A DNA stretch of 64,000 nucleotides from Sulfurimonas sp. HSL3-2. Lineage in GTDB: Bacteria; Campylobacterota; Campylobacteria; Campylobacterales; Sulfurimonadaceae. The stretch lies in assembly GCF_039645965.1 (NCBI RefSeq), contig NZ_CP147917.1, positions 2,046,001 through 2,110,000 of the forward strand, read 5' to 3'. The number at the start of each line of letters is the position of its first letter. Positions within the stretch are counted from its first letter, which is position 1. The notes beneath the pieces are model-generated. The model ran no database searches. It had not been told where the DNA came from and saw only the letters and a list, made by a program, of their open reading frames with translations. A program made the position numbers and the translations under genes. This document shows positions 54,233-59,251 of the stretch, piece after piece.

Positions 54233-54321
54233 GGACAGTTGGGAGAGCTGGTTTAATCCAGTCGCCTGGAACGCGGCCGTAGGGCAACCTACCGAGGGTT
54301 CGAATCCCTCACTGTCCACCA
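54233..54321 (+). tRNA. tRNA-Ser(GGA)
   Basis: A class II tRNA of 89 nt including encoded CCA. The acceptor stem GGACAGT/ACTGTCC is perfect. The D arm is a short 3-bp stem with G18-G19. The anticodon stem GTCGC/GCGGC encloses the loop CTGGAAC, giving anticodon GGA. The long variable arm is GTAGG-GCAA-CCTAC and the T arm is GAGGG-TTCGAAT-CCCTC. The discriminator base appears to be A, whereas bacterial serine tRNAs usually carry G. The 3' third of the gene is echoed at 55176-55205. Confidence 0.93.
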
Positions 54322-54354: not shown

Positions 54355-54657
54355 CTAAAGTGACGCATTATCTATCAGGCTAAGCGGTTCGTTTACATTA
54401 AAGATCTTCGCTCTTATGTCTGTATATCCAAACGATGCCAATCTTTTTGTATGCTTTTGCAGGTATCTGTCTGCATCTTTTAGATTGTCAAAGAGATAGA
54501 TCCCTCCGGCTTCTTTTGTTTCTTCATTTTCTGTCCATATCTTCCATATCAGCCCCTCTTCATTGGCTATATCTTTTGCCAAGTCGGTAAATGCTTCTGA
54601 AAATTCCTCTTTAAACGGTCCTGCATGAGGAAAGTCTACTTGTAACAGATATTTCAT
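54355..54657 (-). CDS. YdhR-family putative monooxygenase
   Basis: A 100-residue protein (KYLLQVDFPHAGPFKEEFSE, then GLIWKIWTENEETKEAGGIY, then LFDNLKDADRYLQKH) that fits the YdhR family. These are small dimeric ferredoxin-like proteins related to antibiotic-synthesis monooxygenases. Substrate is unknown. It is divergent from a MarR regulator with a 69-base gap that contains a TATACT/AGTATA inverted repeat. MarR control of this gene is therefore a reasonable guess. It lies between tRNA-Ser and a tRNA-like repeat, a likely acquired spot. Confidence 0.75.
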   Translation of the reverse strand: MKYLLQVDFPHAGPFKEEFSEAFTDLAKDIANEEGLIWKIWTENEETKEAGGIYLFDNLKDADRYLQKHTKRLASFGYTDIRAKIFNVNEPLSLIDNASL

Positions 54658-54726
54658 GTTATACTCCCAAATATTTTATGTACGAAAGTATAGTGTCAAA
54701 ATAAATTTATGTCAACTAGGTTTACA

Positions 54727-55152
54727 ATGTCTTTATGTTTTTTATCTTTAGAAACGACAAAAGTCTTTAATGAACTCATACTAAAAAATTTACAAAGCAA
54801 TGGATTTGAGGACTTAAGTGTAGCGCTAATAACACTTTTCCCCTATATAGACGGAGATGAGAAGATAACCGCGTCACAACTCTCCAAACTGGTAGGATAC
54901 TCCCGTCAGGCTATGCATAAAAACATAAAAAAGCTAGAAGAAGCAGACTACATCACACTCCTACAGGAAAATCAAAAAGAGAAGATCATCAAGCTTACAC
55001 TAAAAGGCAAAGAGCTGATGAGCGTAGCGAACCGCTATATATCGACCATAGAAAATGAAGTATCTGAACTTATCGGGAAAAAAGAGCTAGACAAGTACAA
55101 AGAAAACCAGATGAGACTCTATGAGTATTTAAGATCAAAGGTTGTCTTTTGA
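54727..55152 (+). CDS. MarR-family transcriptional regulator
   Basis: A winged-helix regulator of about 141 residues. The recognition region SQLSKLVGYSRQAMHKNIKK is followed by LEEADYITLLQENQKEKIIKLTLKGKE, split here as helix and wing, and dimer helices lie at both ends. The ATG at 54727 is chosen for its AGG site; an ATG six codons upstream lacks one. Its last codons contain an AAAGG that once served as ribosome site for a following NDH-2 start, now reduced to a remnant. Likely ligand-responsive control of ydhR and formerly ndh. Confidence 0.82.
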   Translation: MSLCFLSLETTKVFNELILKNLQSNGFEDLSVALITLFPYIDGDEKITASQLSKLVGYSRQAMHKNIKKLEEADYITLLQENQKEKIIKLTLKGKELMSVANRYISTIENEVSELIGKKELDKYKENQMRLYEYLRSKVVF

Positions 55153-55182
55153 GTACAAAAGTAGTGGTTATCGGTGGGGGTT
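55134..55182 (+). repeat. 49-bp direct repeat, copy 1 (marR end plus ndh start)
   Basis: These 49 bases match 58028-58076 at 44 positions. They cover the last codons of marR, with an AAAGG site, and the first codons of an NDH-2 gene. The mismatches cluster around the start codon. This implies two diverged alleles rather than a recent exact target duplication. Confidence 0.85.
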
Positions 55183-55229
55183 TGAGTCTCTCACTGCCCA
55201 CCACCAATCAATTTATTCTAATCCAATAA
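55149..55229 (+). pseudogene. Truncated N-terminal remnant of an NDH-2 gene
   Basis: A TTG overlapping the marR stop opens a 26-codon frame starting MSTKVVVIGGG, nearly the same as the start of the intact NDH-2 at 58043 (MRTKVVVIGGG). After the GGG the sequence switches to a tRNA-3'-end-like stretch and the frame ends at TAA. This marks the former position of ndh directly behind marR. Confidence 0.8.
55176..55205 (+). repeat. Degenerate copy of the tRNA-Ser 3' end (attachment-site-like)
   Basis: Thirty bases align with the T arm and acceptor 3' strand of the tRNA-Ser gene (54294-54323) with 24 identities, including CACTG and CCACCA-like ends. The copy begins at the GGGGGTT shared with the NDH-2 glycine codons. 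The copy and the tRNA enclose ydhR and marR. It could be a decayed attachment site, but no integrase is present. Confidence 0.65.
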
Positions 55230-55239
55230 ATACGTAATG

Positions 55240-56514
55240 TTAGAATTTCAGGATAACATCTAACTGCACACGTTCATAGTATGCTTCTGAGTGACTACTG
55301 CCATCTCTATTTGCGTAAAGTTTATTATAAAAGAATGTTGCAGCAAGGTCTGTATGTTTGCCAAATTTATATTTTGTTCTAATCGCATGTCCTTTAGCAG
55401 CAGTACCGCCACCAAAGTTATCAGAGTCACTATGAGCACCCAATACAGCATCTTCTTGAGTATCAGTATACGAGTACTTCACTTGCCAATCATGAACATT
55501 TTTTGCTTTACCTATTTGAAATGCTAGATCGTATCCAAAGTTATTATTGCTTGCTTGAGTGTTATATGCTACTCCGGCAGCAATTGCAAACGGTTTGCCA
55601 AACAGGTCTTTGTACTTCAACTCTCCGAATGCTTCTACAATGTTGTAATCATTTTCAAATACACCGTTTACTAAAGTGTTACCCATACCTTTATTATTAT
55701 TGGCGCTGTAAAGAGGTGTATTTCCTTTAACACCGTCATAGTAATAAACACCTGCACCTAAATTTAAGTGAGAATTTTCTAATTTAATTTTCTCTACATA
55801 TTGTGCTACAACAAGATTAATAGTATCTCTGGCAACAGAATCCTCAGCATACGTCGGTTGGTTCACACCTAAGTTAATGATGCGAGAATCATTTTCATAC
55901 TTATAGTTGATACCATCGAATGAGAGATCATTATCCCAAACAAGCTGTGACTTGATCGGTCTGTAAAGCATATATGGTTCTCTACCAACTTTTAATGTAT
56001 GATTTCCATCTTGATACGTCAAGCCTAAAATATTCACTCTTAGTGATTGCCAAAAGTAATCACTTAAAGCTCTATCCTCAAATGTTTGGTTACCCGAAGT
56101 CGGATTTGCATATCCACTTCTCATACCGGCGTCAAACGTTAGCTTGTCAGTTAAATCAATAGCTGAAATTAATCTTAATCTGTATCTGTTGTGATAAGTT
56201 GGAGTCTTCTCATATCCATCGTCATAGTTATATTCTTTACTTTCATATCTTAATCTTAAATCACCTTTGAAATGAAATCTGTTCAAGATACTACCTTCAC
56301 TGTTTGAAGAACTTTGCTCAACTTCCGTAATTGTAGTTTTTGGTGTTGACTCTACTGCAGCATTCTTTGTATACTCACCAAGTATCGTGCGACCTTCGCC
56401 TGGAGTATTGAAAATTTCTCCAGTAGCTTTATTCGTATAGATTGTCATTGTCTCTGCGTGTATTGCAGTACCTAGTGTTAATGCGGCCATTGTAGAAAGA
56501 ATAATTTTATTCAT
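55240..56514 (-). CDS. Putative outer-membrane porin
   Basis: A 424-residue exported protein with a signal peptide cut after AIHA, a short polar N-terminal region and then about 340 residues of barrel-type strands (FKGDLRLRYESKEYNYDDGY, LKVGREPYMLYRPIKSQLVW). It ends in LDVILKF with terminal Phe. It resembles uncharacterised Campylobacterota porins. A leader hairpin lies 28-64 bases before its start. It is transcribed after an orphan response regulator on the same strand. The segment is more AT-rich than its surroundings. Confidence 0.8.
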   Translation of the reverse strand: MNKIILSTMAALTLGTAIHAETMTIYTNKATGEIFNTPGEGRTILGEYTKNAAVESTPKTTITEVEQSSSNSEGSILNRFHFKGDLRLRYESKEYNYDDGYEKTPTYHNRYRLRLISAIDLTDKLTFDAGMRSGYANPTSGNQTFEDRALSDYFWQSLRVNILGLTYQDGNHTLKVGREPYMLYRPIKSQLVWDNDLSFDGINYKYENDSRIINLGVNQPTYAEDSVARDTINLVVAQYVEKIKLENSHLNLGAGVYYYDGVKGNTPLYSANNNKGMGNTLVNGVFENDYNIVEAFGELKYKDLFGKPFAIAAGVAYNTQASNNNFGYDLAFQIGKAKNVHDWQVKYSYTDTQEDAVLGAHSDSDNFGGGTAAKGHAIRTKYKFGKHTDLAATFFYNKLYANRDGSSHSEAYYERVQLDVILKF

Positions 56515-56541
56515 GTTGTTTTACCTTGTAATTTTTAAATT

Positions 56542-56578
56542 GCTTAGGCCTTTGTAAAAATAAAGGCTATTCCTAAGC
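56542..56578 (-). promoter_or_regulatory. Bulged hairpin in the porin leader
   Basis: Outer arms GCTTAG/CTAAGC and inner arms GCCTTT/AAAGGC form a 12-bp stem with a 5-base bulge (TATTC) and an 8-base loop. It lies 28-64 bases upstream of the porin ATG, in the gap after the response regulator. No T run follows in the minus direction. A role as leader control element or message stabiliser is more likely than termination. Confidence 0.55.
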
Positions 56579-56660
56579 TTTAGATACAGAAGTTTAATTT
56601 CACAACATTACTTCCGTACTACAAAACCATTACAAAGTCATTACATTAAGGTGTTTTTAG

Positions 56661-57284
56661 TTAATCATTCTGCAGCATGTAGCCCAACCGGTCTCTGGCT
56701 TCTATATATTTATCAGCATTGTAATCTTTGAGTTTTTGTTTAAGTCTAAAAATCGCAACTCTTAATTTGCTGACATTTCCTTGTGAATATTTTTCATTCC
56801 AGATATTTCTAAAGATCTCCTGTTTAGTAAGTAAAACACCTTTGTTTTCAAGAAGATAAGAAATTATTTTGTATTCAATCGCTGTGAGCGTAACTTTAGT
56901 TCCATCAATATATAGACACTTGTCAGTATGATTCAATACAATATTTTTATATTCTATTGAATCTTCAGATGACAAAATGGATTTTATTCTTATCTTGATC
57001 TCATCCTTTGTAAAAGGTTTCACTATAAAACTGACATTTTTACTCTGTAAAACTGTAGAAAACTTCGGTAATACCTCAGGTTCTATAACCAATAAAACGC
57101 CTTTATAAATATCCAATACTTTTGTTACAAACTCAACATCCGTTGATGAGGTAACCTCTAGAATCAGGCTGTTATTATGTGTCTTATACATGTTTACATT
57201 TTCTAGTAAATTTATATCAAAGTAAAAACTACTTTGTAATGTTTGAATTATTTGAAGATCACTCATGACCACATCAATGCTCAT
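56661..57284 (-). CDS. Orphan OmpR-type regulator with degenerate receiver
   Basis: A 207-residue protein. The N-terminal 115 residues resemble a receiver, with the conserved Lys in VSFIVKPFTKDE. However, the acidic pair near the N-terminus is missing, and the phospho-acceptor position reads LILEVTSS rather than an Asp. The C-terminal winged helix is of OmpR type (LTAIEYKIISYLLENKGVLLTK split, then KLRVAIFRLKQKL and RDRLGYML). No histidine kinase is nearby. It probably controls the adjacent porin without phosphorylation. TAGGAAA precedes the ATG. Confidence 0.8.
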   Translation of the reverse strand: MSIDVVMSDLQIIQTLQSSFYFDINLLENVNMYKTHNNSLILEVTSSTDVEFVTKVLDIYKGVLLVIEPEVLPKFSTVLQSKNVSFIVKPFTKDEIKIRIKSILSSEDSIEYKNIVLNHTDKCLYIDGTKVTLTAIEYKIISYLLENKGVLLTKQEIFRNIWNEKYSQGNVSKLRVAIFRLKQKLKDYNADKYIEARDRLGYMLQND

Positions 57285-57358
57285 TTATTTTCCTATTTTG
57301 TTGGTATTTGAAATTTTTTTATTGAACTGAATTCAATAGATTTGGATTAGAAAATAAA

Positions 57359-57646
57359 TTACGATTGCGGAGGTTTTGGGTTTGCAGAGTCTATGTACTC
57401 TTTATAAGCAGTGTAAGGTGTATATATCTTTTGCGAAGAAGGCGTGAAGTATAGGGTAAGTTTGAAGTGGTCTTTAGCAACCTGGTCATCAAGTTGATTT
57501 ATGTCTATTTCTGAAACTTCTTCAGAAGTTTCTTGAGAAAAATCAATGGTGACATCAAATGATTTTTGGTATTCTGTTGCAATATTTAATTGAGCAAAAA
57601 GAGAACTTGTAAAAATCAAGAAAAATAATGTAAACAGATACTTCAT
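57359..57646 (-). CDS. Small secreted protein of unknown function
   Basis: A 95-residue protein with a clear signal peptide (MKYLFTLFFLIFTSSLFA) and a mature part of about 77 residues. The mature part has an acidic centre (SQETSEEVSEIDINQLDD) and a Pro/Tyr-rich end (YTPYTAYKEYIDSANPKPP). It contains no cysteine and no lipobox. It precedes the orphan regulator on the same strand and may share a transcript. I do not recognise a family. Confidence 0.6.
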   Translation of the reverse strand: MKYLFTLFFLIFTSSLFAQLNIATEYQKSFDVTIDFSQETSEEVSEIDINQLDDQVAKDHFKLTLYFTPSSQKIYTPYTAYKEYIDSANPKPPQS

Positions 57647-57721
57647 AAAAGAATTTTAGTATAAAAAAAGAAATATGAGAAGTTTTAATATTTTATAAGA
57701 CAGTTGATCAATAATGCAGCT

Positions 57722-57886
57722 CTATTCTTGATCAAGATCTTCCAATAAAGTATCGAGACTATCAAGGCTCTCAAGAAGCCAATCTAAGCTAAGATTTTCT
57801 TCTACATCATTGTTATTTTCAATCTCTTTTTTTTGAGATTCTATTTCTGCTTGAACTTCTTGTTCAAATGATTCGTTATTATCCAT
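57722..57886 (-). CDS. Small acidic protein (54 residues)
   Basis: An ATG frame of 55 codons including stop that encodes a strongly acidic, probably helical peptide (EQEVQAEIESQKKEIENN, ending LDWLLESLDSLDTLLEDLDQ). The leucine spacing suggests an amphipathic helix. The ribosome site is weak (AAAG). The flanking bases 57647-57721 and 57887-58009 show nothing else except an AT-rich promoter region. Real coding is plausible from codon texture but unproven. Confidence 0.45.
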   Translation of the reverse strand: MDNNESFEQEVQAEIESQKKEIENNNDVEENLSLDWLLESLDSLDTLLEDLDQE

Positions 57887-58009
57887 ACAAAACTTTACAC
57901 GAATAGAATTACATTTCGATTACATTCAAGCTGGCAATATTGCAAAAAGTCTTTTAATCAAATTAAGAGCATCTTTCGATCAAGCTACATTATTGCTACC
58001 TTAACTCTG

Positions 58010-58015
58010 TATAAT
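58010..58015 (+). promoter_or_regulatory. Candidate -10 element for ndh
   Basis: TATAAT in CTGTATAATTG lies 28 bases before the TTG of ndh and just before the repeated block that carries its AAAGG ribosome site. It lets ndh be expressed without marR. Confidence 0.5.
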
Positions 58016-58027
58016 TGTAAAAACAGA

Positions 58028-58076
58028 ATCAAAGGTTGTCAGTTGCGAACAAAAGTAGTGGTTATCGGCGGGGGTT
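58028..58076 (+). repeat. 49-bp direct repeat, copy 2 (ribosome site and start of intact ndh)
   Basis: Partner of 55134-55182 with 44 of 49 identical bases. It keeps the ATCAAAGGTTGTC stretch that, in copy 1, encodes the end of MarR. Here it is non-coding and supplies the ribosome site for ndh. Confidence 0.85.
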
Positions 58077-59251
58077 ATGGCGGGTTGCGCGCCATCGAGT
58101 TTTTGGCAAAACATAATGACGTCGACATAACGCTCATCGACAAAAATCCTTACCATTACTTACAGACCGAAGCTTACGGCTACATCGCGGGGCGTTTTGA
58201 CATCCATGAGATCGCCATCGACCTTGATAAATGGTGCCGCGGATTTAAGAACAGAGTCGACTTTCTTTATGAAAAAGCGACTGCGGTGGACTATGAAAAC
58301 CAAACCGTCACTACGGAAAAACAGCAGCTTTCATTTGACTACCTCATCGTCGCTACGGGAGCACAGACAAACTTCTTCTCTTTTATAGAGGGGCTTCGTG
58401 AGAACAGCTACGGCGTGAAAAACCTCATGCGTGCTTATAACTTCAGAAAAGAGTTTGAAAACCTCATCTATAAAAAACTCCAAAACGAAGAGATAAATAG
58501 CGGTGAAGATATCAACCTTGCCATCGGCGGAGCGGGCTTAAGCGGTGTGGAAGTGGCTGCAGAGATGGCACATGTCATCGAGATCTACAGCAAAACTCTG
58601 GGCGAAAGGGCTAAAAAGATAAAGATCTATCTTATCGATGCGAGCGATACCATCCTTCCGGGAATGAGCTCATACATAATCTCAAATACAAAGAAAAGAC
58701 TTGAAAAACTTGGTGTCAATATACTCACCAGCGCATTTATAGAAAAACTGGATAAGACGACTATCTATTTTAAAAACGGCGAACAGTTAAAATACCATTT
58801 CATGATCTTCACGGGAGGCATCAAAGCTTCTTCTCTCAACACGAAACTGGAGTGTGAAAAGAACAGGATCGACCAGCTCATCGCTGACGGGGAGCTCAAC
58901 ATCCACAACAGCAAAAACATCTTTGCCGTAGGCGACTGCGTCGAGATAAAAGACATGCACGGCAAGCTGCTCCCGCCAACGGCGCAAATAGCCGAAAAAA
59001 GCGCGGAGTATGTGGCAAACACCATCCGCAAAAGGATAGACGGCAGAGCCAGCCAGCCGTTTCATGCCGATGTCAGCGGGATATTTGTAGCTCTTGGAGG
59101 CACATATGCAGTCGGAGAGATGTTCGGTTTTGTCAAGGTAAAAGGCTATACGGCGTACCTGCTCAAAAAAGCGATAACCTACGCCTATTTCCTCGGTCTG
59201 CATCTGCGCATAAACGCAGGATACAAAAACAGGATAAAAGACACTCTTTAA
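58043..59251 (+). CDS. Type II NADH dehydrogenase-like FAD oxidoreductase (NDH-2)
   Basis: A 402-residue flavoprotein. The FAD-binding start is KVVVIGGGYGGLRAIEFL, with LIDKNPYHYLQTEAYGYI, LIVATGAQTNFF and a second nucleotide-binding fold at LAIGGAGLSGVEVAAEMA. FAD-contact NIFAVGDCVEI and PPTAQIAEKSAEYVANTI follow. The C-terminal amphipathic region suits membrane attachment. This is the NDH-2 pattern: NADH or sulfide:quinone-type electron transfer without proton pumping. No sulfide:quinone reductase cysteine pattern is obvious. The start is TTG. Its former place was directly behind marR. Confidence 0.85.
   Translation: MRTKVVVIGGGYGGLRAIEFLAKHNDVDITLIDKNPYHYLQTEAYGYIAGRFDIHEIAIDLDKWCRGFKNRVDFLYEKATAVDYENQTVTTEKQQLSFDYLIVATGAQTNFFSFIEGLRENSYGVKNLMRAYNFRKEFENLIYKKLQNEEINSGEDINLAIGGAGLSGVEVAAEMAHVIEIYSKTLGERAKKIKIYLIDASDTILPGMSSYIISNTKKRLEKLGVNILTSAFIEKLDKTTIYFKNGEQLKYHFMIFTGGIKASSLNTKLECEKNRIDQLIADGELNIHNSKNIFAVGDCVEIKDMHGKLLPPTAQIAEKSAEYVANTIRKRIDGRASQPFHADVSGIFVALGGTYAVGEMFGFVKVKGYTAYLLKKAITYAYFLGLHLRINAGYKNRIKDTL

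Follow-up and report, generated by a model that had tools for sequence, protein, structure and literature searches.

Two tRNA-Ser-to-ndh intervals in tandem in Sulfurimonas sp. HSL3-2, a possible seam between two captured gene cassettes

Analysis of the window (the whole stretch of Sulfurimonas sp. HSL3-2 DNA under study, 64,000 nucleotides) revealed the gene order intact tRNA-Ser, ydhR-marR, a remnant of the ndh start (ndh') with a remnant of the tRNA 3' end (tRNA'), a segment of porin, regulator, and small open reading frames (ORFs), and the intact type-II NADH dehydrogenase-like gene ndh. Read from the sequence, this order is that of two tRNA-to-ndh intervals in tandem. The best explanation, given about an even chance of being right, is that the space between tRNA-Ser and ndh captured two foreign cassettes, which a single microhomology join concatenated. 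The 49-bp repeat at this locus would then be the scar between two separately gained gene blocks and not the mark of an ancient marR-ndh operon that was split, and this is the favored reading, held with the same even confidence.

The 49-bp duplication of the original prediction was recovered by a repeat search with the same coordinates and identity, as direct copies at 55134-55182 and 58028-58076 on the plus strand (44/49 identical, 90%; spacing 2894 nt). The core of the repeat, ACAAAAGTAGTGGTTATCGG, occurred at these two sites only in the whole 2,240,048-bp single-contig genome with three mismatches allowed, which excludes a chance similarity. The right copy comprises the leader and start of the intact ndh (58043-59251, plus strand; Pfam Pyr_redox_2, 3e-39). 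The left copy was identified from the repeat search and comparison with the relative G004 as a remnant of the ndh leader and first codons, differing from the ndh start of G004 at 3 of 49 positions, all of them third codon positions. As predicted, the end of the MarR-family regulator gene (54709-55152, plus strand; Pfam MarR_2) lies inside the left copy, where its TGA stop overlaps the TTG start codon of the would-be ndh. The scar extends beyond 55182, running on into the 3' end of a tRNA-Ser gene (about 55176-55203).

The overlap of the marR stop with the ndh TTG is the observation that speaks for the model first proposed, in which a vertically inherited ancestral marR-ndh operon was interrupted by insertion of the porin segment and a new promoter arose next to ndh. 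The upstream region of ndh spoke against it. The gene was 80-86% identical in five genus mates, and its leader and start, AATCAAAGGTTGTCTTTTGAGTACAAAAG, were also present upstream of ndh in G004, where the leader carries AATCAAAGGTTGTCTTTTGAGTAC, indicating that the ndh leader is old. The native promoter region (57984-58042, plus strand), defined by aligning the region with those of genus mates and of five more distant loci, comprises GCTA-N5-TTGCTA at 57984-57998, the extended -10 TGTATAAT at 58008-58015, and the leader. The extended -10 was also identified in G001, G002, and G007, and GCTA-N5/6-TTGCTA was found above it at the same place upstream of ndh in five more distant loci outside the genus clade (L057, L058, L060, L062, and L088). 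This motif, whose exact GCTA-N5-TTGCTA form occurs only once in the 64-kb window, is a putative operator or promoter element of ndh. The native promoter stands before the right copy only, while the left copy has none. From these alignments, the ndh start and extended -10 appear to be old and the old promoter retained, such that no new promoter need have arisen, contradicting that part of the model, and ndh probably kept its old regulation. Elsewhere in the same genome (G000:C1:332559-333752) lies another ndh paralogue, which shares 39% identity with the ndh described here.

The conserved leader also reverses the direction of a further claim, that the ndh ribosome site was made from sequence encoding the MarR C-terminus: the leader is old, and it is marR that reads into it. 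The last few MarR residues (VVF) are encoded by ndh leader sequence; MarR homologues are of about equal length or two residues shorter. The leftmost bases of the left copy, ATCAAAG, may be native marR sequence because a 67%-identical homologue ends in ...CTAAAATCAAAAGAGTGA in a C-terminus comparison, and the join between marR and the ndh leader may have used this word.

No marR orthologue was detected in the seven other genus genomes; the nearest relatives (62-67% identical) belong to the sister genus g2, and no marR was found near ndh at 47 named related loci or in the fetched regions of relatives. Based on this distribution, marR is judged not to be ancestral at the locus. A marR-ndh junction could have existed as a transient in one allele, but not as an ancestral, vertically inherited operon, and the split-operon model, largely refuted by the marR distribution and the conserved promoter, is very improbable.

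The interval holds other genes in relatives. A single contig of the genus mate G004 carries cobC, tRNA-Ser, a short ORF, nhaA, and ndh in this order, showing the same interval filled by different cargo, and nhaA also directly precedes ndh in G003. The nhaA of the window genome is only 57% identical and lies at another locus. In G003 (L031 near 9921 and L032 9417-9473), the nhaA-ndh fusion lies at AAAGG in the leader, the point at which marR is joined in the window, so joins have formed in this leader two or more times. In the genus mate G001, the region downstream of tRNA-Ser(GGA) (L164:7050-9528) is another cargo at the same tRNA, apparently encoding methyltransferase-like and DUF262/HNH-type proteins according to a reading of translations.

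Cassette 1 contains, in addition to marR, a gene for a ydhR-type mono-oxygenase (54355-54657, minus strand; Pfam PF08803, 1.4e-41), and the homologues of the two genes are likewise adjacent in L165, L168, and L178. Cassette 2 contains genes for a Porin_5-type porin (55240-56514, minus strand; Pfam, 4.4e-18) and an OmpR/PhoB-type regulator (56661-57284, minus strand; Trans_reg_C, 7.9e-16), followed by an ORF of 95 amino acids with an apparent signal peptide and no family match (57359-57646, minus strand) and an ORF of 54 amino acids, acidic from its translation, that may not be a gene (57722-57886, minus strand). The regulator has a C-terminal DNA-binding domain with no Response_reg match and no recognizable receiver domain in Pfam, and its best family matches (34-37%) cover the C-terminal domain only. 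The seven other genus genomes yielded no porin orthologue, with N-terminal partial matches only, and the best porin relatives (60-76% identical) were mostly from g2. In one locus with a porin relative (L170), the next downstream genes resemble a phosphate-transport operon from their translations. A search with defense-gene models gave weak HTH matches only, and defense genes were rejected as cargo.

The AT-rich segment has 32% GC vs 46% for ndh, in line with the composition first noted; marR itself is also low in GC. GC at third codon positions was 36-40% in ydhR-marR, 27-28% in the porin and regulator genes, and 52-59% in the cob genes and ndh. Low GC and the lack of porin orthologues in the genus support the proposal that the segment was imported. 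From the absence of genus orthologues, the relatives in g2, and the differing third-position GC of the blocks, both blocks look acquired, probably from different sources. The nearest g2 relatives of marR and the porin lie at separate loci, and no single donor of the pair was observed; in G118, G116, and G223, about 78-84 kb separates the two. The alternative to a gain of the cassettes is their loss from all sampled genus mates.

A tRNA-Ser remnant that was absent from the original prediction explains much of the architecture. The intact tRNA-Ser(GGA) gene (54233-54321, plus strand; ARAGORN and Rfam) forms the left border of the variable interval, and its order with cobC is the same in G004; an Rfam match on the minus strand at 54253-54318 was discarded as the antisense of this tRNA. 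Downstream of it by 0.9 kb and directly 3' of the left copy lies GGGGGTTTGAGTCTCTCACTGCCCACCA, which resembles the end of the resident tRNA, GAGGGTTCGAATCCCTCACTGTCCACCA. This decayed copy, tRNA' (55176-55203, plus strand), is fused to ndh' with an overlap at GGGTT and matches the resident tail at 23 of 28 positions, vs 18 of 28 for the next best match on both strands of the 64-kb window. Over 24 positions, 20 matched, compared to at most 17 in shuffled 2.8-kb segments. Among 228 family genomes, no closer source was found, and the other matches within three mismatches of the tail were only tRNA-Ser-like tails of genus g8. The resident tail is identical in G004 and G006, and tRNA' differs from it at 4 of 24 positions, which points to decay of tRNA' or to another source. 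The flanks outside the two tRNA ends showed no significant similarity (p = 0.25).

A second copy of the tRNA 3' end beyond an intact tRNA gene is the classical mark of an integrating element, here one that targets tRNA-Ser, in which case tRNA' would be the old attachment-site half at the far end of a ydhR-marR-ndh' island. No integrase or mobility gene was recognizable between tRNA-Ser and ndh from ORFs and Pfam, where the only ORFs of at least 80 amino acids were ydhR, marR, the porin, the regulator, and the 95-amino-acid orphan; furthermore, such an island would need to terminate in a piece of ndh, and its tRNA copy matches the resident gene at only about 82% of positions. Given the missing integrase and the fusion of the tRNA copy to part of ndh, an integrase-driven island is less likely and is regarded as improbable.

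In the preferred two-cassette explanation, the tRNA-Ser to ndh interval would be a variable site at which at least two unrelated foreign cassettes were taken up in the lineage. One allele would have carried tRNA-Ser, ydhR-marR, and ndh, the end of marR running into the ndh leader, and another would have carried tRNA-Ser, the porin, regulator, and small ORFs, the native promoter, and ndh. Recombination between these alleles, by ordinary homology on one side and a 5-nt microhomology join at GGGTT on the other, would place the cassettes in tandem with ndh 5' and tRNA 3' remnants at the seam, giving the order tRNA-Ser, cassette 1, ndh' and tRNA', cassette 2, and ndh; ndh would keep its old promoter and marR would gain a few codons of the ndh leader. 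The GGGTT at the seam is common to the ndh start and the tRNA T-arm, and 5 nt of microhomology at one junction is a weak sign of the route. In favor of the explanation are the unique repeat, the contact of tRNA' with ndh' at GGGTT, the different cargo in this interval of relatives, the missing genus orthologues of marR and the porin, whose nearest relatives lie at separate g2 loci, the contrasting GC of the cassettes, and the native promoter on the right copy only. Against it, no genome with either single-cassette allele was found, tRNA' diverges from the resident gene, the flanks outside the tRNA ends lack significant similarity, and ndh has no mosaic boundary. A broader proposal, which is considered unlikely, is that the interval undergoes repeated integrase-free accretion of cassettes, with alternative alleles stacked in tandem through the microhomology that the ndh start (GGNGGGGGTT) shares with the tRNA T-arm and each event recorded by a tRNA/ndh scar.

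The main rival, possible yet distinctly less probable than the two-allele history, is template switching with filler DNA at one complex breakpoint as the porin segment was joined behind marR. Synthesis would have passed from marR to the ndh leader at ATCAAAG, copied about 41 nt, switched to the tRNA-Ser T-arm at GGGTT, copied about 26 nt, and continued into the porin DNA, such that no marR-ndh allele need have existed. In its favor, the two copied pieces are short and directly oriented, their sources lie within 3 kb, and short words are shared at the two seams. However, three junctions are required in one event, and the exact filling of a tRNA-to-ndh interval by the next cassette would be a coincidence.

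The locus is judged to be a well-conserved scar, of a known kind, left by recurrent gene capture in an interval next to a tRNA gene, and it shows how a duplication that looks like an interrupted operon may in fact mark where two acquired blocks meet. When both parental ends of such a scar can still be read, the way in which genes were gained can be retraced in environmental bacteria that have no visible mobile elements. A minor testable outcome is the conserved element before ndh. A search of a limited literature collection found nothing on short-patch double illegitimate recombination.

In genomic islands at tRNA genes, foreign genes lie beside the tRNA 3' end and another such end follows them. 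The same layout is seen here, but the interval has no integrase, and its tRNA copy is degraded and joined to part of ndh. Microhomology-mediated template switching (MMBIR-type filler DNA) joins short templated patches at short shared words, as occur at the present joins, but it does not predict a cassette that fits the tRNA-to-ndh interval. In homology-facilitated illegitimate recombination, one end is fixed by homology and the other is an illegitimate join (PMC3240628). Unlike that system, the route is inferred here from one genome with no donor allele seen for comparison. Identity of ndh to relatives in sliding windows displayed no sharp change marking a mosaic break at the homologous end. 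At the other end, foreign DNA is joined at a microhomology, the GGGTT of the seam, and one homologous plus one illegitimate end, as in that system (PMC3240628), would account for how a foreign cassette came to lie next to a duplicated gene start.
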